From Pseudomonas typographi (GTDB lineage Bacteria > Pseudomonadota > Gammaproteobacteria > Pseudomonadales > Pseudomonadaceae), in NCBI RefSeq assembly GCF_014694385.1, contig NZ_JAAOCA010000009.1, positions 1 to 64,000 on the forward strand: 64,000 bases of DNA, in the 5' to 3' direction. Positions 4,248-55,371 of the stretch are shown here, one piece after another. How positions within the stretch are numbered: the first letter of the stretch is position 1; each line of letters begins with the position of its first letter. A program made the translations under genes and the position numbers. Under the pieces are notes generated by a model. It ran no database searches and was not told the origin of the DNA. It saw nothing but the letters and a program-made list of their open reading frames with translations.

Positions 4248-5204
4248 ATGAATTTTCAACAGCTGAGAACCGTACGCGAAGCTATCCGCAAGGGATTCAA
4301 CCTCACGGATGCGGCTAATGTGCTGTGTACGTCTCAGTCTGGGGTTTCACGGCAGATCCGGGAGCTGGAGGAAGAGCTCGGCGTTGAAATTTTCGAGCGG
4401 TATGGCAAGCGGTTGATCGGCCTGACCCCTCCGGGGCGTGACATCGCACAGATCATCGACAGGCTGTTGGTCGAACAGGAAAACCTGCGTGGCGCGGCGA
4501 GCGATCACTTTGGCTTGATTACCGGGCAGCTGGATATCGCCACCACCCATGCGGTAGCCCGGTATTTACTTCCACCGGTGCTGGCGGCGTTCAGTGCGCA
4601 GTATCCGCAGGTCAAGTTAGGCTTGCATCAGGCATCGCCGGCGCAGGTCGCGCAGATGGTGCGTGACGGCGTGGCCGACCTGGGGTTTGTCAACGAGCAC
4701 CTGTATAGGCAATCGCCTTCAGACCTGGTCTTGTTTAAAGCCTTCTCCTGGTCACATTGCCTCATCGTGCCGGTAGGGCACCCGCTGTTGAAAGAACCGC
4801 AGTTAACGCTCGCACAAGTCGCCGCTTATCCCATCATCACCTACGACGAGTGCATGACGGGGCGGGCCCAGATTAACCAGGCGTTCTATGAGCATGGCCT
4901 TACGCCCAATGTGGTATTGACTGCATTGGATTCCGACATCATAAAGGCCTACGTTGAAGTAGGGCTGGGTATCGGCATTATCGCAGAAATGGCTTACAGC
5001 CCCGATCGTGATCAGGCCATCGCCTGTTTGAATCAAACGCGTCTGACGCTGCCCAACACCGCTTACCTGGCGTTGCGGCGCGGGGCCTTTATGCGGGGTT
5101 ATGCGCTGTCGCTGATTCACAGCATTCTGCCTGATATTCCTGTGGCCAAACTCAAAAGAGCCATAGAGGTAGGGAACCACCACGCCGACCTGCAAGCGGT
5201 GTAA
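4248..5204 (+). CDS. LysR-family regulator, CysB/Cbl subgroup
   Basis: 318-residue regulator. The N-terminal winged helix-turn-helix covers about residues 1-60 (MNFQQLRTVREAIRKGFNLT, then ALCTSQ-like LCTSQSGVSRQIRELEEELG), which is the CysB/Cbl signature rather than a general LysR one. The co-inducer domain follows from about residue 90. CysB proteins respond to O-acetylserine or related sulfur metabolites and activate sulfur-starvation genes. The ATG at 4248 is preceded by AGGTCT/CCAGGA and gives the family-typical N terminus; upstream in-frame starts add unrelated residues. Divergent from cysK, so it probably regulates the three-gene sulfur set and itself. Whether this is the main CysB or an extra paralogue cannot be seen here; its linkage to a monooxygenase suggests a specialised one. 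Confidence 0.88.
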   Translation: MNFQQLRTVREAIRKGFNLTDAANVLCTSQSGVSRQIRELEEELGVEIFERYGKRLIGLTPPGRDIAQIIDRLLVEQENLRGAASDHFGLITGQLDIATTHAVARYLLPPVLAAFSAQYPQVKLGLHQASPAQVAQMVRDGVADLGFVNEHLYRQSPSDLVLFKAFSWSHCLIVPVGHPLLKEPQLTLAQVAAYPIITYDECMTGRAQINQAFYEHGLTPNVVLTALDSDIIKAYVEVGLGIGIIAEMAYSPDRDQAIACLNQTRLTLPNTAYLALRRGAFMRGYALSLIHSILPDIPVAKLKRAIEVGNHHADLQAV

Positions 5205-16812: not shown

Positions 16813-16980
16813 TGTCGGTGGCGCCTCAGATATTAGCCGCACCGTTTTGAGGCTGGCTTGCGTTTGCCTGGCTGCGTTGCCCCTGCCCTCCATAATCCTG
16901 CTGGGAGGAGCCACTGCGCCTTTCCCGACAATAAAATGCAGGCGCCAATGCTTGTGCGAACCTCTCAGGCACTACACTAG
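16813..16980 (+). repeat. CTAG-ended intergenic repeat, copy A
   Basis: About 168 bases between the dehydrogenase and ohr. It shares the left-end block GTGGCGCCTCAGATATTAG with four other copies, and the right-end block with CCAATGCTTGTGCGAAC and then CACTACACTAG. Left end is diverged. Part of the MITE-like family described under findings. Confidence 0.65.
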
Positions 16981-30223: not shown

Positions 30224-31678
30224 GTGACTCAGAAGCCCGACCAGTGCCTTGGTGAATGGATTGACCGTGAAGCGCTCGCCGAAGCAATGATTCCGATCAT
30301 TGGTCAGCTCTACCGCAACAATAACGTGGTGAGCTCGATTTATGGCCGTAGCCTGATCAACCGTTCCGTGATTCAAATCCTCAAGGCTCACCGTTATGCT
30401 CGCCACCGCCAGGCTGACGAAAACGAGCTCTCGGTGCACGAGACGTTTGCGCTGCTCAAGGCCATGAGCGAACTCAAGCTCGGTGCGGCTTCCGTCGACT
30501 TGGGCAAGCTGGTGGAAAAATTCAAGGCCGAAGGCAACGGCCGCAACGCCGAACAATTCGTGCGTGATGAATTGGCCGACGTGGTGGGCAAGCAGACCAC
30601 CACGGTGGGCGTGCGCAAGGGCCAAGACGTGGTGCTCTATGGTTTCGGCCGCATCGGCCGGTTGCTGGCGCGTATCCTGATCGAGAAAACCGGGGGCGGC
30701 GACGGCCTGCGCCTGCGCGCGATCGTCGTGCGCCAAGGCTCGAAGGACGACCTGTCCAAGCGCGCCAGCCTGCTGCGCCGCGACTCGGTGCACGGTACCT
30801 TCGAAGGCACTATCCTGGCCAATGAAGAAGACAACACACTCAACGTCAACGGTAACCTGATTCAGGTGATCTACGCCAAGAGCCCGGCCGACGTCGATTA
30901 CACCCAGTACGGCATCGAAAACGCCCTGGTGGTCGACAACACCGGCGTGTGGCGCGACGCCGAGGGCCTGGGCCAGCACCTGGCCTGCCCGGGCGTGGGC
31001 CGCGTGGTGCTGACCGCACCGGGCAAGGGCAAGCTCAAGAATATCGTGCACGGCATCAACCACGGCATCATCAATGATGATGACCGCATCATCTCGGCCG
31101 CCTCTTGCACCACCAACGCCATCGTGCCGGTACTCAAGGCCGTCAACGACAAGTTCGGCATCACCAACGGCCACGTTGAAACCGTTCACTCGTACACCAA
31201 CGACCAGAACCTGATCGACAACTTCCACAAGGGCTCACGCCGGGGCCGTAGTGCCGCGCTGAACATGGTGCTGACCGAAACGGGCGCCGCTACCGCCGCG
31301 GCCAAGGCCCTTCCGGAACTGGAGGGCAAGCTGACCGGCAACGCCATTCGCGTGCCCACGCCGAACGTGTCGATGGCTATCCTGAACCTCAACCTGGACA
31401 AGCCCACCACCCGCGAAGAACTCAACGAGTACCTGCGCGACACCGCCTTGCATTCGGAGCTGTCCAAGCAGATCGACTACGTTGACTCGACCGAAGTGGT
31501 GTCCACCGACTTCGTAGGTTCCCGTTATGCCGGCGTGGTCGATGCCCAGGCGACCATCGTCAACGACAACCGTGTGGTGTTGTACGTGTGGTACGACAAC
31601 GAGTTCGGCTACAGCTGCCAGGTGGTGCGTGTGATGGAAGACATCGCCAAGGTCAACCCGCCAGCCTTCCCACGCTAG
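30224..31678 (+). CDS. gap: Glyceraldehyde-3-phosphate dehydrogenase, long N-terminal form
   Basis: 484 residues, about 150 longer than ordinary GAPDH. Residues about 1-125 are an extra helical N-terminal domain (MTQKPDQCLGEWIDREALAE). The Rossmann part begins at VLYGFGRIGRLLARI near 136, and the catalytic cysteine is in AASCTTNAIVPV near 293. The NAD-binding end is WYDNEFGYSCQVVR. This form occurs in pseudomonads beside mfd. It may act in gluconeogenesis, which is inference. The start is GTG 30224 with GGAAGG upstream. The stop TAG lies within a CTAG repeat end at 31675. Confidence 0.94.
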   Translation: MTQKPDQCLGEWIDREALAEAMIPIIGQLYRNNNVVSSIYGRSLINRSVIQILKAHRYARHRQADENELSVHETFALLKAMSELKLGAASVDLGKLVEKFKAEGNGRNAEQFVRDELADVVGKQTTTVGVRKGQDVVLYGFGRIGRLLARILIEKTGGGDGLRLRAIVVRQGSKDDLSKRASLLRRDSVHGTFEGTILANEEDNTLNVNGNLIQVIYAKSPADVDYTQYGIENALVVDNTGVWRDAEGLGQHLACPGVGRVVLTAPGKGKLKNIVHGINHGIINDDDRIISAASCTTNAIVPVLKAVNDKFGITNGHVETVHSYTNDQNLIDNFHKGSRRGRSAALNMVLTETGAATAAAKALPELEGKLTGNAIRVPTPNVSMAILNLNLDKPTTREELNEYLRDTALHSELSKQIDYVDSTEVVSTDFVGSRYAGVVDAQATIVNDNRVVLYVWYDNEFGYSCQVVRVMEDIAKVNPPAFPR

Positions 31679-31836
31679 GGTGGTGCCCCCAGAAGCTGGC
31701 TGCACAGTGTTGACCATTGCTGCCGGGCCGTGTTGCCTTAGCGCGGTGTAACCTTGCTATGGCGCATCACGGCGCCTGGCTCGACAGCAACGTTCACAGA
31801 TCAACTCTCGGGCTAACGTCTGGAACATCACACTCG
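31675..31836 (+). repeat. CTAG-ended intergenic repeat, copy B
   Basis: About 162 bases directly after gap. Left end CTAGGGTGGTGCCCCCAGAA and TGGCTGCACAGTGTTGAC align with copies at 45.9 and 53 kb. The core has ATCACGGCGCCTGGC, and the right end is AACATCACACTCG. The gap stop codon TAG is part of the CTAG end. Confidence 0.65.
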
Positions 31837-45494: not shown

Positions 45495-45666
45495 CCGGTG
45501 TGGCGGCGCAGGCGTTCGCATAAGCATTGTTGGGTGCATTTTGCGATTGGGCAAGGCGCCGTGACCCGCCATGGCCAGGCTATAGCGATGGGCTGCAGCG
45601 CCGCCCGTGAGCAAAAGCATCGTCGAAAGGGTGCAGCCAGCCCCAGCCTCTGCGGCACCCCATTAG
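45495..45666 (-). repeat. CTAG-ended intergenic repeat, copy C
   Basis: About 172 bases in minus orientation, directly after rnz. It shares the exact 16-base core GGGCAAGGCGCCGTGA (45549-45564) with copy E at 52981-52996. Ends resemble CCGG at the rnz side and CATTAG near the DUF6316-like gene, whose stop codon TAA lies inside that end. Confidence 0.65.
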
Positions 45667-45893: not shown

Positions 45894-46062
45894 CTAGCGT
45901 GGTGCCTCTGAAGTTAGCTGCACCACCTGGACGGTGCCTTTGCCGCCGGGCGGTGGCGCATTTGCGTTTCTCGCCATGGCTGTACTGCGTCGGTCATGGC
46001 GCCTGGCCCGGCCTGCAAAATCACACGCCAATGCGTGCACGAACTTCTGCGGCACACACTGG
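45894..46062 (+). repeat. CTAG-ended intergenic repeat, copy D
   Basis: About 169 bases between the DUF6316-like gene and fumC, oriented plus. Left end CTAGCGTGGTGCCTCTGAAG and TTAGCTGCACCACC. The core is CATGGCGCCTGGCCC, and the right end is CGAACTTCTGCGG followed by CACACTGG. It is the best-preserved left end and faces copy C across the small gene. Confidence 0.7.
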
Positions 46063-50432: not shown

Positions 50433-52910
50433 ATGAAGCAGCAGACTCGGATGCTCGAAAGCCCAAGGCTCATCGCCATTGCTTGGCCATTTATCGCCGT
50501 GGTCCTTCTGTTGGCGTCGCTGGGTACTTTCAGCCTTTACGCGATGTCGGCGATGCGGGGTTACGTTGCCGGTGAAAGCCTTTGGTCCAAGGGCCAGAAA
50601 GACGCAATCTACTACCTGAACCTGTACGCAAGCAGCCCCGATGAGCGAATTTTCCAGAAGTATCGGCAAGCCATTGCCGTTCCTCAGGGCGGCCACGACT
50701 TGCGCATGGCGCTGGATCAACCCGTCGCGGACACGGCCAAGGCGCGGATAGGGCTGCAGCAGGGCGGTAACCATGCCGACGACTTCAGCGGCATCATCTG
50801 GTTTTTCCTGAATTTCCGCCATTTTTCCTATTTTGCCCGCGCGATCGACCTCTGGACCATTGGCGATGGGTACCTGTTCAAGCTCGACGAAGTTGCCCAG
50901 GCCATGCACAGCAGCATCCAGGCTGGGCAGGCGGGCCCGGACGATGTAAGGCGCTGGAAGGCGCAGATCCTGGACATCAACGAGCAGGTGACGCCTGCGG
51001 CGAAGGCGTTCAGTGATGCGTTGGGCGAGGGCTCGCGTTTCTTGCAGCGCCTGCTGATAGGCATCAACTTGTTTACCGCTTTCGCGCTGATCGCGATTGC
51101 GCTGTGGATCACCCGCAAGCTGCTCGCCCAGCGCCACGCCTTCGCCGAAGCGTTGCAGGAAGAAAAAGACCGTGCGCAAGTGACCCTGGCCTCGATTGGC
51201 GACGGTGTGATCGCCACCGACGTGGACGGCGCCATTGTTTACATGAACCCGGCCGCCGAACAGTTGACCCATCTGAAAGCTGAGCAGGCGGCGGGCCTAC
51301 CGCTGGCGGCGCTGTTCAACCTGCTCGACGAGAACGCCGAGCGTGACGCTTCGACGTTGATCGAGCGTATCCGTACCGGCCAGCTCAATGGCGGCCGCGA
51401 ACACCCGCGGATGATCCAGCGGCTTGATGGCAGCATGGTGTCGGTGGCTTTGGGGGGGGCGCCGATCGTTCACGACAGCCGCATCAGCGGTACGGTGCTG
51501 GTGCTGCACGACATGACCCAGGAACGGCAATACATCGCCAACCTCGCCTGGCAAGCCACCCACGATGCGTTGACGGGCCTGGCTAACCGCCGGGAGTTCG
51601 AGTTCCGCCTTGAGCAGGCACTCAACGGGCTGAACGACAGCGGTACGCGCCACGCACTGCTGTTTCTCGATCTGGACCAGTTCAAGCTGGTCAACGACAC
51701 CTGCGGCCATGCCGCCGGTGATGAGCTGCTTCGGCACATCTGCGCCTTGTTGCAGTCGGGCCTTGGTGGTGGCGACACCTTGGCGCGGCTGGGTGGCGAT
51801 GAGTTTGGCGTATTGCTCGAGCACTGTGCGCCGCAGGTGGCCGAGAGGACCGCCGAGCAGTTGCGCGAAGCGGTGCAGAACTTGCATTTCGTGTGGAAGG
51901 GCCGGCCCTTCATGACTACCCTGAGCGTGGGCTTGGTACACCTGCATCAGCCACCCACTACCTTGGAAGAGGCGCTGCGGGTCGCCGACCTGGCTTGCTA
52001 TATGGCCAAGGAAAAAGGCCGTAACCGCGTGCAGGTGTATCACGAAGACGATACCGAGCTGACCGTGCGCTTCGGTGAAATGGCCTGGGTGCAGCGCTTG
52101 CGCCTGGCTCTGGAAGAAGACCGCTTCTGCCTGTACGCCCAGGAAATCGCCAGCATCGGCGGCCTACCCACAGCCAGCGGCCACGCCAGCCATGTGGAGG
52201 TCTTGGTGCGGCTACAGGATGAAAGTGGCCGGATCATTCTGCCCAACAGCTTTATCCCCGCGGCCGAGCGCTATGGGCTGATGCCTTCGCTGGATCGCTG
52301 GGTTGTACAAAATGTGTTCAAGGTGTTGCGCCAGTGCCTGGACGAAGGCGGTGACCAACCCCTGGCTATGTGTGCGATCAACCTGTCGGGCGCCAGCATT
52401 GGCGACGACGAATTTCTTGATTTTATCCGTGAGCAACTGTACCGGTACGACATTCCAGCACAGTTGATTTGTTTCGAAATTACCGAAACCAGCGCCATCG
52501 CCAACCTCGCCAGCGCTATTGGCTTCATCAATGAACTCAAAGACCTTGGCTGCCTGTTTTCCCTAGACGATTTCTGCGCGGGAATGTCGTCGTTTGCCTA
52601 TTTGAAGCATTTGCCAGTGGACTTTCTCAAGATCGACGGCAGTTTCGTCAAAGACATGCTCGACGACCCGATCAACCGCGCGATGGTCGAGGTGATCAAC
52701 CATATCGGCCACGTGATGGGCAAGCGAACGATCGCTGAGTTCGTAGAATCCCCGTTGATTGAGCAGGCCCTGGTAGAAATCGGCGTCGATTACGCGCAGG
52801 GTTATCTGATCGAGCGCCCCTTGCCGTTTACCTGCCAGAGCCTGCGCCGGGCGGACGCACAAGGCAGGGGCGCACGGGTTTCACCTACCTCGCCGCATGT
52901 ATGCGACTAG
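50433..52910 (+). CDS. Membrane GGDEF-EAL cyclic-di-GMP protein with PAS domain
   Basis: 825 residues. Transmembrane helices lie at about 14-36 and 205-226, enclosing a periplasmic sensor loop. A PAS domain covers about 245-365 (SIGDGVIATDVDGAIVYMNP). GGDEF follows (RLGGDEFGVLL near 453) and then EAL (EVLVR near 588; ITETSAIANL, LDDFCAGMSSFAYLKHLPVD, FLKIDGSFV and YAQGYLIERP complete the phosphodiesterase site). Both active-site sets look intact, so it may both make and degrade c-di-GMP. ATG 50433 has AGGGA upstream. It is followed by the undA region. Confidence 0.93.
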   Translation: MKQQTRMLESPRLIAIAWPFIAVVLLLASLGTFSLYAMSAMRGYVAGESLWSKGQKDAIYYLNLYASSPDERIFQKYRQAIAVPQGGHDLRMALDQPVADTAKARIGLQQGGNHADDFSGIIWFFLNFRHFSYFARAIDLWTIGDGYLFKLDEVAQAMHSSIQAGQAGPDDVRRWKAQILDINEQVTPAAKAFSDALGEGSRFLQRLLIGINLFTAFALIAIALWITRKLLAQRHAFAEALQEEKDRAQVTLASIGDGVIATDVDGAIVYMNPAAEQLTHLKAEQAAGLPLAALFNLLDENAERDASTLIERIRTGQLNGGREHPRMIQRLDGSMVSVALGGAPIVHDSRISGTVLVLHDMTQERQYIANLAWQATHDALTGLANRREFEFRLEQALNGLNDSGTRHALLFLDLDQFKLVNDTCGHAAGDELLRHICALLQSGLGGGDTLARLGGDEFGVLLEHCAPQVAERTAEQLREAVQNLHFVWKGRPFMTTLSVGLVHLHQPPTTLEEALRVADLACYMAKEKGRNRVQVYHEDDTELTVRFGEMAWVQRLRLALEEDRFCLYAQEIASIGGLPTASGHASHVEVLVRLQDESGRIILPNSFIPAAERYGLMPSLDRWVVQNVFKVLRQCLDEGGDQPLAMCAINLSGASIGDDEFLDFIREQLYRYDIPAQLICFEITETSAIANLASAIGFINELKDLGCLFSLDDFCAGMSSFAYLKHLPVDFLKIDGSFVKDMLDDPINRAMVEVINHIGHVMGKRTIAEFVESPLIEQALVEIGVDYAQGYLIERPLPFTCQSLRRADAQGRGARVSPTSPHVCD

Positions 52911-52928
52911 AGCGGTAGGTAAGGCGCA

Positions 52929-53093
52929 CTCGCGTGGGGCTTGAGGCGCTGGTACCCCGATTGCCGGGTAAATTATGGCTGGGCAAGGCGCCGTGATGAT
53001 ACGTAGCAGGGCTATGGTGAGCAATGACAACCCAGCTTGGCCGTAAAAAGCACCGTCAACATTGTGCAGCTAACTTCTGAGATACCACACTAG
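52929..53093 (-). repeat. CTAG-ended intergenic repeat, copy E, upstream of undA
   Basis: About 165 bases, minus orientation, between the GGDEF-EAL gene and undA. Left end on the minus strand is CTAGTGTGGTATCTCAGAAG, followed by TTAGCTGCACAATGTTGACG. It shares a 16-base identity (52981-52996) with copy C. Its CTAG boundary lies 67 bases before the undA start, so it could alter that promoter. Confidence 0.65.
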
Positions 53094-53159
53094 GTTCGGC
53101 TGCCGTTCGCGTGGCCTTGACGCGATCGGCTTTACCCACGACGCAAAAGGAAGTTGTTC

Positions 53160-53963
53160 ATGACCGAATTAACCGAAGCTGTGTTCACCCGTACTGGCCC
53201 ACTGATGGAGGCCACCAGCTACCCCGTGTGGGCCCAGCAGTTGCTACGAGATTGCAGCATCGCCAAACAGCGAGTGGTCAACCATGAGTTCTACCAAAAG
53301 TTGCGTGACAACACGTTAACCGCCACGACCATGCGCCAATACCTGGTCGGTGGCTGGCCAGTGGTGGAGCAGTTTGCGTTGTACATGGCCCAGAACCTTA
53401 CCAAAACCCGTTACGGGCGTAGCCCCGGCGAAGACATGGCGCGGCGCTGGCTGATGCGCAACATCCGCGTCGAACTCAACCATGCCGACTATTGGGTGCA
53501 TTGGGCCCAGGCCCATGGCGTGACAGTGGAAGACCTGCACGCGCAGAAAGTCCCGCCAGAGCTCACGGCGCTAAGCCATTGGTGTTGGCACAGCAGCGCG
53601 TCCGATACCTTGGTGATCGGCATGGCCGCTACCAACTACGCCATCGAAGGTGCCACCGGAGAGTGGGCGCACGTCGTGTGCTCCAGTGACACCTACGCCA
53701 ATGCCTTCCCCGAGGCGGGGCGCAAACGCGCCATGCGCTGGCTTGCGCTGCATGCCGAGTACGACGATGCGCACCCCTGGGAAGCGTTGGAAATCATCTG
53801 CACCCTGGCCGGCCCCAACCCGTCGCGCTCACTGCAGGCCGAGCTGCGCAAGGCTATCTGCAAGAGCTACGACTACATGTACCTGTTCCTGGAGCGCTGC
53901 ATGGAGCTTGAACGCATGACCCTCGCCGCCCATGCCGATGCTGGCGAAGCGATGCCCGCCTAG
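53160..53963 (+). CDS. undA: 1-Undecene synthase UndA (heme-oxygenase-like diiron oxidase)
   Basis: 267 residues of the TenA-like fold. The sequence resembles the P. protegens/P. fluorescens UndA across its length as I recall it: RTGPLMEATSYPVWAQQL, RQYLVGGWPVVEQFALYMA, RRWLMRNIRVELNHADYWVH. The metal ligands fall at E105, H108, E163, H198 and D202, the same spacing as UndA E101, H104, E159, H194 and D198. UndA converts lauric acid to 1-undecene with O2. The ATG at 53160 follows AAGGA by 8 bases; a TTG at 53154 is less likely. Flanked by unrelated genes, so it looks like a mobile single-gene trait. Annotations as TenA regulator or thiaminase would be misleading. Confidence 0.85.
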   Translation: MTELTEAVFTRTGPLMEATSYPVWAQQLLRDCSIAKQRVVNHEFYQKLRDNTLTATTMRQYLVGGWPVVEQFALYMAQNLTKTRYGRSPGEDMARRWLMRNIRVELNHADYWVHWAQAHGVTVEDLHAQKVPPELTALSHWCWHSSASDTLVIGMAATNYAIEGATGEWAHVVCSSDTYANAFPEAGRKRAMRWLALHAEYDDAHPWEALEIICTLAGPNPSRSLQAELRKAICKSYDYMYLFLERCMELERMTLAAHADAGEAMPA

Positions 53964-53965
53964 GC

Positions 53966-54697
53966 TTACTGCGCGTTCAACGCCTGGCCGTTTACCGCGG
54001 CGCTGTCAGGCCCCATCAAGTAAAGGTACACCGGCATGATATCGGTTGGCGTGGGCACACGCTGGGGGTCTTCGTGCGGGTAGGCCTGGGCACGCATGTC
54101 GGTCCGGGTGCCTCCTGGGTTGACACTGTTGGCGCGCAGTCGGGTGCCGGCCAGTTCATCGGCCAGGGTTTGCATCAGGCCTTCGGTGGCGAATTTCGAC
54201 ACCGCATAGGCCCCCCATTGGGCCCGGCCCTTGCGCCCGACGCTGCTGGAGGTGAACACCAGCGAAGCATCGTTGGGCGCCCTACGCAGCAGGGGCAACA
54301 GGGCCGCCGTCAGGGCGAAGGTGGCGTTCACGTTCACTTGCATCACCCGCGCGAACTCGGCGGGGGTAATGTGCTCAAGCTCTACCCGCGGGCCGAGTAA
54401 CGATGCATTGTGCAGCACGCCATCCAAATGCGTGCCTAATTGGCCGGCCAAGGCCTGGTAATCAGCCTCGTGGGCGTGCTCGAGGTCCAGCAGCACGGCC
54501 TGTGCCTGGCCATGGCCGGCCGCAGCGATGGCGTCGGCTGTGCGTTGCAGTGCCGCCCCATGGCGCCCCAGCAGCACCACCTGCGCGCCATGGGCAGCGA
54601 AGGTTTCCGCCGCCGCCGCGCCAATCCCGCGGCCGGCGCCGGTAACCAGGATGCGCCGGCCGGCGAGCAGTTGCGGGGGGGCTTGGTAGGTGAACAT
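53966..54697 (-). CDS. yciK: YciK family short-chain dehydrogenase
   Basis: 243-residue SDR. TGAGRGIG is near 20-27, LHNASLLGPR near 93, the serine is in VFTSSSVG, and YAVSK carries the tyrosine and lysine. The PGGTRTDMRAQAYP C-terminal region is a YciK trait. Conserved in pseudomonads directly after mupP and ubiG, as here. Substrate is unknown. The start ATG 54697 overlaps the end of mupP (stop 54700), so translation is coupled. Confidence 0.9.
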   Translation of the reverse strand: MFTYQAPPQLLAGRRILVTGAGRGIGAAAAETFAAHGAQVVLLGRHGAALQRTADAIAAAGHGQAQAVLLDLEHAHEADYQALAGQLGTHLDGVLHNASLLGPRVELEHITPAEFARVMQVNVNATFALTAALLPLLRRAPNDASLVFTSSSVGRKGRAQWGAYAVSKFATEGLMQTLADELAGTRLRANSVNPGGTRTDMRAQAYPHEDPQRVPTPTDIMPVYLYLMGPDSAAVNGQALNAQ

Positions 54698-54699
54698 GC

Positions 54700-55371
54700 T
54701 CAGCACCCGCACAGGGCTTGGTCGAGCACCCGGCGCAGTTGCTGCGGTGTGTCGACCACCACGTCGGCACCCCAATGGCCAGGGTTGTCGTAGGGGTGAA
54801 TGTAGCCGAAGCGCACTGCCGCGGTACGTGTGCCGGCGGCGCGGCCGGCTTCGATGTCACGCAGGTCATCGCCAATGAACAGCACGCTCTGCGGCGGCAG
54901 GCCCAACTGTTGGCAGGCCAGCAGAAGCATTTCTGGGTCTGGCTTGCTACGGGTGACATGATCCGGGCACACCAGCACCTTCGACCGCTGTGCCAGGCCT
55001 AATTGCTGCATGATCGGCTCGGCAAAGCGCACCGGCTTGTTGGTCACCACCCCCCAGGGCAAATGCGCGTGCTCGATATCAGCCAGCAGTTGCTCCATGC
55101 CGTCGAATGGCCGGGTGTGTACGGCGCAGCCGGCCTGGTAGCGCTCCAGGAACTCCAGGCGCAGGGCCTCGAACTCCGCGGCGTCGGGCAACAGCGCAAA
55201 GGTGGCGCTGACCATCGCCCGTGCACCGCCGGAGATGACCTCGCGCACCCGCTGTTCATCGACCGGCGGCAGGCCGCGGGCCTCGCGCATGGCCTGGCAA
55301 ATGGCGATAAAGTCCGGGGCTGTGTCGAGCAGTGTTCCGTCCATGTCGAACAGTACGGCGCGAAGCTTCAT
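54700..55371 (-). CDS. mupP: N-acetylmuramic acid 6-phosphate phosphatase
   Basis: 223-residue HAD-family phosphatase. Motif I is DMDGTLLDT (D9 and D11), motif II VVTNK, motif III in SKPDPEM and motif [12 protein letters not shown]. Location between ubiG and yciK matches the gene that in P. putida and P. aeruginosa was shown to be MupP of the peptidoglycan-recycling pathway, linked to intrinsic fosfomycin resistance; it was long annotated as Gph (phosphoglycolate phosphatase). The alternative Gph role cannot be excluded by sequence alone. Confidence 0.9.

Follow-up and report, generated by a model that had tools for sequence, protein, structure and literature searches.

The undA gene of Pseudomonas typographi is preceded by a short repeat that is very probably the fossil of an IS630-type MITE, mobilised in trans and inserted into the spacer between undA and the upstream EAL gene. 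Four points were observed directly: the gene is homologous to undA, the repeat belongs to a dispersed family, its ends are identical with those of an IS630 element, and the spacer is larger than in relatives. The stretch of DNA that was analysed, 64,000 nucleotides long, is called the window in the following. Around undA it contains these features:

50433–52910, plus strand: gene for a PAS-GGDEF-EAL (c-di-GMP) protein; its stop TAG (52908–52910) is part of a CTAG, and 18 bp separate it from the element
52929–53093, no strand assigned: decayed near-palindromic CTAG-ended element, very probably an IS630-type MITE; left end CTCG, right end CTAG
53147–53153, plus strand: likely ribosome-binding site of undA, AAGGAAG, read by eye and also present in the relatives' loci L002 and L058
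53160–53963, plus strand: undA, predicted medium-chain fatty-acid decarboxylase (1-undecene synthase), from PDB matches and ligand residues
53966–54700, minus strand: gene for a yciK family oxidoreductase, convergent with undA
54700–55371, minus strand: mupP gene

Identity and neighbours of undA

The open reading frame at 53160–53963 encodes 267 amino acids and is, judged from its sequence, a well supported and normal UndA orthologue. UndA is a diiron enzyme that converts lauric acid to 1-undecene, and this activity is predicted for the product. Searches of the PDB returned the UndA chains 4wwj (E 2.9e-137) and 6p5q (E 4.8e-137), matching over residues 8–255, and also the TenA homolog 3oql (E 5.1e-129), while the nearest relatives that are not UndA-like were CT610 (E 6.6e-4) and the 4-aminobenzoate synthase 8va9 (E 8.2e-4). 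In Pfam the product matches Haem_oxygenas_2 and TENA_THI-4. The residues E105, H108, E163, H198, D202, H205 and W194 are all found in it and the diiron ligand set, as far as the sequence tells, is complete; the assignment of residues to individual ligands is one that we take to hold here. For UndA, a diiron ligand set of three histidines and three carboxylates together with W190 is described in an excerpt of PMC13108848. A TenA/CADD-like relative that is no 1-undecene synthase is a very improbable identity for this protein: CADD is the sole NCBIfam model that matches, with 48 bits against a cut-off of 200, and the comparison of UndA with non-UndA TenA proteins gave E-values of about 1e-137 to the UndA chains and of about 1e-3 to CT610, which together with the complete ligand set argues for UndA. 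The first-pass annotation, which had called the gene undA on account of its metal ligands, was thus borne out.

The product resembles the UndA proteins of Pseudomonas (4wwj, 6p5q) in the match over residues 8–255, in the ligand residues and in genus, and it is 77% identical to UndA of P. protegens FD6. Its listed relatives in the genus are 69–79% identical, with none above 79% among the best matches listed, so that this undA lineage is somewhat divergent. The gene is common in the genus and is itself ordinary there: it was found in 164 of 199 sampled genomes (E≤1e-3, own genome counted; the weakest of the 164, G060, reached an E-value of 1.5e-4 only), and a search of relatives yielded a match in 29 of 57, all 29 within the genus.

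The place of undA in its gene block is standard, not unusual. A PAS-GGDEF-EAL gene adjoins undA in 133 of 133 loci, which represent 117 distinct undA sequences, and this constant pairing points to a possible link between c-di-GMP and 1-undecene. Long flanks were available for 80 of the 133 loci, the best 80 of 355 relatives. A convergent yciK gene lies downstream of undA in 65 of these 80, at a distance of 66–2851 bp (median 1464) and within 400 bp in 6 of the 65; in the other 15 the flank as retrieved showed no yciK, and in one of these (L057) it stops at a contig end. The first-pass annotation had stated that undA occupies a position which, downstream of yciK, is usually taken by other genes in pseudomonads. 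This agrees in part with the roughly 1.4 kb that separate undA and yciK in many relatives, but an unusual place for undA does not follow, as the PAS-GGDEF-EAL gene is its neighbour throughout.

In our locus 249 bp separate the EAL stop from the undA start; the 133 loci have a median of 45 bp (range -4 to 69). Two records of one genome, Pseudomonas sp. KNUC1026, are the exception with 287 bp and a broken upstream frame, and no element is present in the sequence of these spacers. The break in the KNUC1026 EAL reading frame lies at about 4560–4720 of its locus (L060). The element profile recovered our own locus as positive control but gave no match in the 133 loci of relatives. Spacers of about 45 bp suggest that the EAL gene and undA are co-transcribed in the relatives, and set against the 249 bp found here they place the element in the spacer of an apparent operon and not in a known promoter. 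The earlier view that the repeat lies in the promoter region of undA is therefore doubtful, all the more since a promoter and terminator scan of 52850–53250 revealed neither a sigma-70-like promoter site nor a terminator-like site.

The element and its family

The covariance model described below places the element at 52929–53093 (139.7 bits, E 2.5e-39), a score that is favoured by construction because this copy was among the 26 sequences from which the model was built. The start coordinate is identical to the one given in the earlier description of a CTAG repeat, and the end on the undA side is indeed a CTAG located 67 bases before the ATG at 53160. The left end, CTCG, follows the upstream stop after 18 bp, so this copy is not joined to a stop codon, and the left end could be misplaced. 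The half of the copy proximal to undA retains 81% of the consensus and the distal half 65%, which is the largest such gap among the 26 copies. It is possible that the element alters undA expression; the effect on undA transcription would most likely be a weaker link to the upstream gene.

The first evidence for a family came from searching the genome with the spacer as plain DNA: 42 matching pieces were returned, query included, and the aligned copies have sharp CTAG-type ends. A profile made from full copies turned into a model matching both strands, since the element is over its whole length of about 165 bp a single imperfect palindrome. A covariance model built from 26 copies gave 150 matches at E≤1e-3, of which 137 were left after removal of overlaps on opposite strands; as scoring was limited to 150 of 4028 candidates, every one of which passed, the genome contains at least 137 copies. 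An 18-base end pattern, with up to two mismatches allowed, occurs 32+32 times versus 0+0 times for the reversed control. The family is dispersed far beyond what is expected by chance, and the 64-kb window alone holds five copies. In addition to the one before undA these are:

31675–31836, no strand assigned: second element copy; its terminal CTAG (31675–31678) contains the TAG stop of the GAPDH gene
16813–16980, no strand assigned: third element copy
45495–45666, no strand assigned: fourth element copy
45894–46062, no strand assigned: fifth element copy

The pairwise identity of the 26 aligned copies is 59–89% with a mean of 74%, thus none of them looks recent. An element of about 165 bp holds at most 55 codons, and with its at least 137 copies the family has the form of a MITE, a short, dispersed, multi-copy element.

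It could be argued that the repeat is not mainly the fossil of a mobile element but a functional RNA or DNA hairpin under selection, acting as a terminator, as an mRNA-stability element or as a regulator of undA; we regard this as improbable. The consensus does fold into one long hairpin, and in the 26 copies the number of double-change cells is 34 versus 21.3 in shuffles (0 of 500 reach 34), the number of pairs with a pair-keeping double change is 20 versus 14.2 (11 of 500) and the covariation score is 0.171 versus 0.156 (1 of 500). In addition, the central core is common to genomes with different element ends. However, a slide by -1 column yields 37 double-change cells, above the 34 of the structure itself, the paired cells amount to 84.3% versus 83.4% in shuffles, and RNAalifold on the 26 copies gives merely -11.7 kcal/mol. 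For a well-kept copy the folding energy is -93.6 kcal/mol (z -10.9), but for the undA copy it is -48.9 kcal/mol, a value that 163 of 200 shuffles equal or surpass (z +0.92). The lack of a terminator-like site in the scanned spacer and of any Rfam match at E≤1 in 52000–55000 also speaks against this reading. For an RNA function there is thus some covariation, with little beyond the controls.

The element is abundant, intergenic and palindromic like the REPs of Pseudomonas (PMC3733652, in excerpt), which would make it a repeat of the REP/REPIN class moved by RAYT transposases. This can hardly be the case, since REPs are 20–40 bp long while the unit found here has about 165 bp and CTAG-type ends, and these ends match an IS630 element.

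The consensus has a match (E≤1e-3) in 113 of 398 genomes of the genus, own genome counted and at most two candidates scored per genome. Some of these genomes contain elements of a P. putida type, a label judged from sequence, which have equal length, the palindrome and CTAG ends but a different end sequence (TGTCCTGTCTCGGAAATA), with the core common to both types. The conservation of this core (e.g. 52981–53040; L219–L247) across genomes with different terminal repeats includes its asymmetry. At about 1390–1660 of locus L225, two elements of the family lie side by side with one CTAG in common. Neither of the two element sequences matched any of 72,556 plasmid records (E≤0.01), and the end pattern of the P. 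putida type gave no match in viral contigs. Among the 398 sampled genomes no close relative of our genome was present, the mupP-ubiG stretch reaching no more than 82% in its DNA matches.

Palindromic MITEs of the ERIC and YPAL type consist as a whole of one imperfect palindrome. They are like the element in this respect but occur in other hosts. Several repeats known from Pseudomonas are comparable. In P. fluorescens R0, R2, R6 and R178 are abundant, MITE-like intergenic repeats with inverted repeats, as is the element; R6 has 177 bp with 34-bp repeats and 50 copies in Pf0-1, and R178 has 101 bp with an 11-bp internal repeat (PMC2718517, in excerpt). Compared with R6 and R178 by size and description only, the element may be a form of either. 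MITEPsy1 of P. syringae, a further Pseudomonas MITE, has CTAG or YTAA as its target, with a 4-nt duplication, but it is 100 nt long with 18-nt terminal repeats of another sequence; six copies are present in strain 1448A and the authors suggest that it derives from ISPsy2 (excerpts of PMC3189936). Repeat families of P. putida, for instance Ppu-9 with 124 bp, are also on record (PMC2267715, in part). Among the matches listed from the open-licence literature, which included few subscription papers, none dealt with IS630-type MITEs located at CTAG stop codons of Pseudomonas.

An IS630 element with the same ends

The partner with matching ends was found in another genome, G170, as a unit of 1187 bp (both CTAGs counted) that starts and ends with CTAGTGTGGTGTTTCAGAAGTACCGC and contains one gene for 361 amino acids. 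The encoded protein is an IS630-family transposase (NF033545, 272.7 bits versus a cut-off of 100; DDE_3), and CTAGTGTGGTGTTTCAGAAGT is present at both ends of the unit. Other whole IS copies with like ends are located in G190 and G280 (three copies, 97%), G278 (two copies, 76–78%) and G149 (84–85%, in two frames), and fragments occur in G104, G110, G278 and G392. Seven of the eight whole IS copies, which come from five genomes, have CTAG on both sides and one has TTAG and CTAG. The P. syringae plasmid copy that was inspected sits between two TTAGs, and a CTAG is thus not the target in every case. The IS was not detected at E≤1e-15 in our own genome, which is one of 18 genomes without a match among the 26 searched; megablast with the IS DNA yielded no match in 72,556 plasmid records, and relatives of the IS protein are present in 587 plasmid records.

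The match between element and IS spans about 21 bases at the ends, and inside the element no IS-derived sequence was recognised. Terminal inverted repeats are thus held in common with an autonomous element, which is found in other genomes only. Insertion sequences of the IS630 family (NF033545) and the element are alike in terminal sequence and CTAG-type target, whereas the IS has about 1.18 kb with a transposase gene and the element about 165 bp and no such gene. In G149 a variant, CACAAGT, is common to the MITE ends and the IS ends; this single case is what would be expected if both kinds of ends co-evolve.

Two other transposase families were considered as mobilisers and rejected. IS1182 (PF13751) is present with 14 loci in 7 of 12 genomes; an end scan of all 14 found none flanked by element ends, apart from a few single weak end matches (13 of 18 bases), and an inverted-repeat search of four loci gave no IS with element ends. 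For IS481 (NF033577), element ends were located on both sides of 1 of 30 loci (L410, G170), and the protein encoded there is the IS630 transposase.

IS630 is known to target the TA in 5'-CTAG-3'. PMC6811581 states this for one insertion, and PMC2170065 as well as PMC6811581 name Tenzen and Ohtsubo 1991 as the primary paper on the IS630 target. We propose that a non-autonomous IS630-type MITE of about 165 bp once entered the short spacer between the gene for the c-di-GMP enzyme and undA, and that the transposase acting on it in trans would have come from an IS630-family element with equal ends (CTAG-TGTGGTGTTTCAGAAGT). The target of the undA copy would most likely have been a CTAG. Exactly CTAG are 58 of 252 element ends; 5 of the 126 intergenic copies have it at both ends and 73 at neither, and for this reason the target is deduced from the IS together with those copies that are best preserved. 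Since the IS630 transposase is not detected in the genome today, the most likely reading of the at least 137 copies is that of fossils which no longer move and are drifting apart.

Element copies and CTAG stop codons

With gene context called by a simple codon-usage script, 126 of the 137 copies are intergenic (66 between co-directional, 38 between convergent and 22 between divergent genes), 6 are intragenic and 5 are at contig edges; the intragenic copies, all below 45 bits, and those at contig edges were left out of the context counts. Convergent gaps are over-represented, with 38 of 126 among gaps with an element versus 19 of 145 among the other gaps of at least 30 bp in the same loci (p 9e-4). 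A similar tail-to-tail bias is described for the P. fluorescens repeats (excerpts of PMC2718517).

An exact overlap of 4 bp with the element is found for 38 of 142 adjacent gene 3' ends and for none of 110 gene 5' ends. The 38 joints belong to 36 copies; thus, 36 of the 126 intergenic copies have the stop codon of a neighbour exactly in their last four bases. The joint reads CTAG in 23 of the 38, and the other 15, which have another stop, mostly CTAA but also TTAG, are taken as later changes. CTAG forms the last four bases of 35 of 140 genes next to an element, at any distance, versus 13 of 242 non-adjacent genes (p 8e-8), and long open frames that meet element ends do so in the TAG frame 50 times versus 24 and 16 times in the other frames (p 1e-5). 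One of these genes is located in the window:

30224–31678, plus strand: glyceraldehyde-3-phosphate dehydrogenase (GAPDH) gene, whose product has a full-length C-terminus and whose last four bases are the CTAG of the copy at 31675–31836

Its protein spans positions 3–478 of a model of 480, so the gene, the only one checked in this respect, is not truncated by the element. At two sites (G000 C187:165161–165327 and C88:59522–59688) stops of convergent genes are present at both element ends, as would be expected if the two stops had once overlapped on a single CTAG.

It might be possible that IS630-type MITEs of Pseudomonas use CTAG stops as safe harbours and that the undA copy split an operon, thereby uncoupling 1-undecene production, but we put this forward only tentatively and consider it less probable than its opposite. 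Because the transposase targets the TA inside CTAG, an insertion at ...C-TAG would rebuild the stop. Survivorship instead of a preference of the transposase could also lie behind the enrichment. Intact CTAG ends carry a stop joint in 24 of 53 cases, part of which must be retention, since stops are maintained by selection. In a rougher comparison 36 of 126 copies stand against 16 of 113 free non-coding CTAGs, an about two-fold enrichment (odds ratio 2.4, p 0.008), although here the old sites may have any sequence today while the free sites are CTAGs at present. The rule was not replicated in 29 copies from other genomes (frames 12, 10 and 2; p 0.07). The undA gene itself ends in a CTAG (53960–53963), a free site of the kind that the element appears to use.

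If the safe-harbour reading is true, two convergent genes with stops overlapping on one CTAG would each keep one, and a hairpin could have spread to at least 137 places while leaving the adjacent genes intact. undA and its c-di-GMP neighbour form a conserved pair that the element separates here, which provides a natural test of co-regulation. The element is of more interest than undA itself, being a Pseudomonas repeat in many copies for which a transposase family and a target can be proposed, and it suggests a simple rule, that CTAG stop codons may be tolerated landing sites, which can be tested in any pseudomonad genome.
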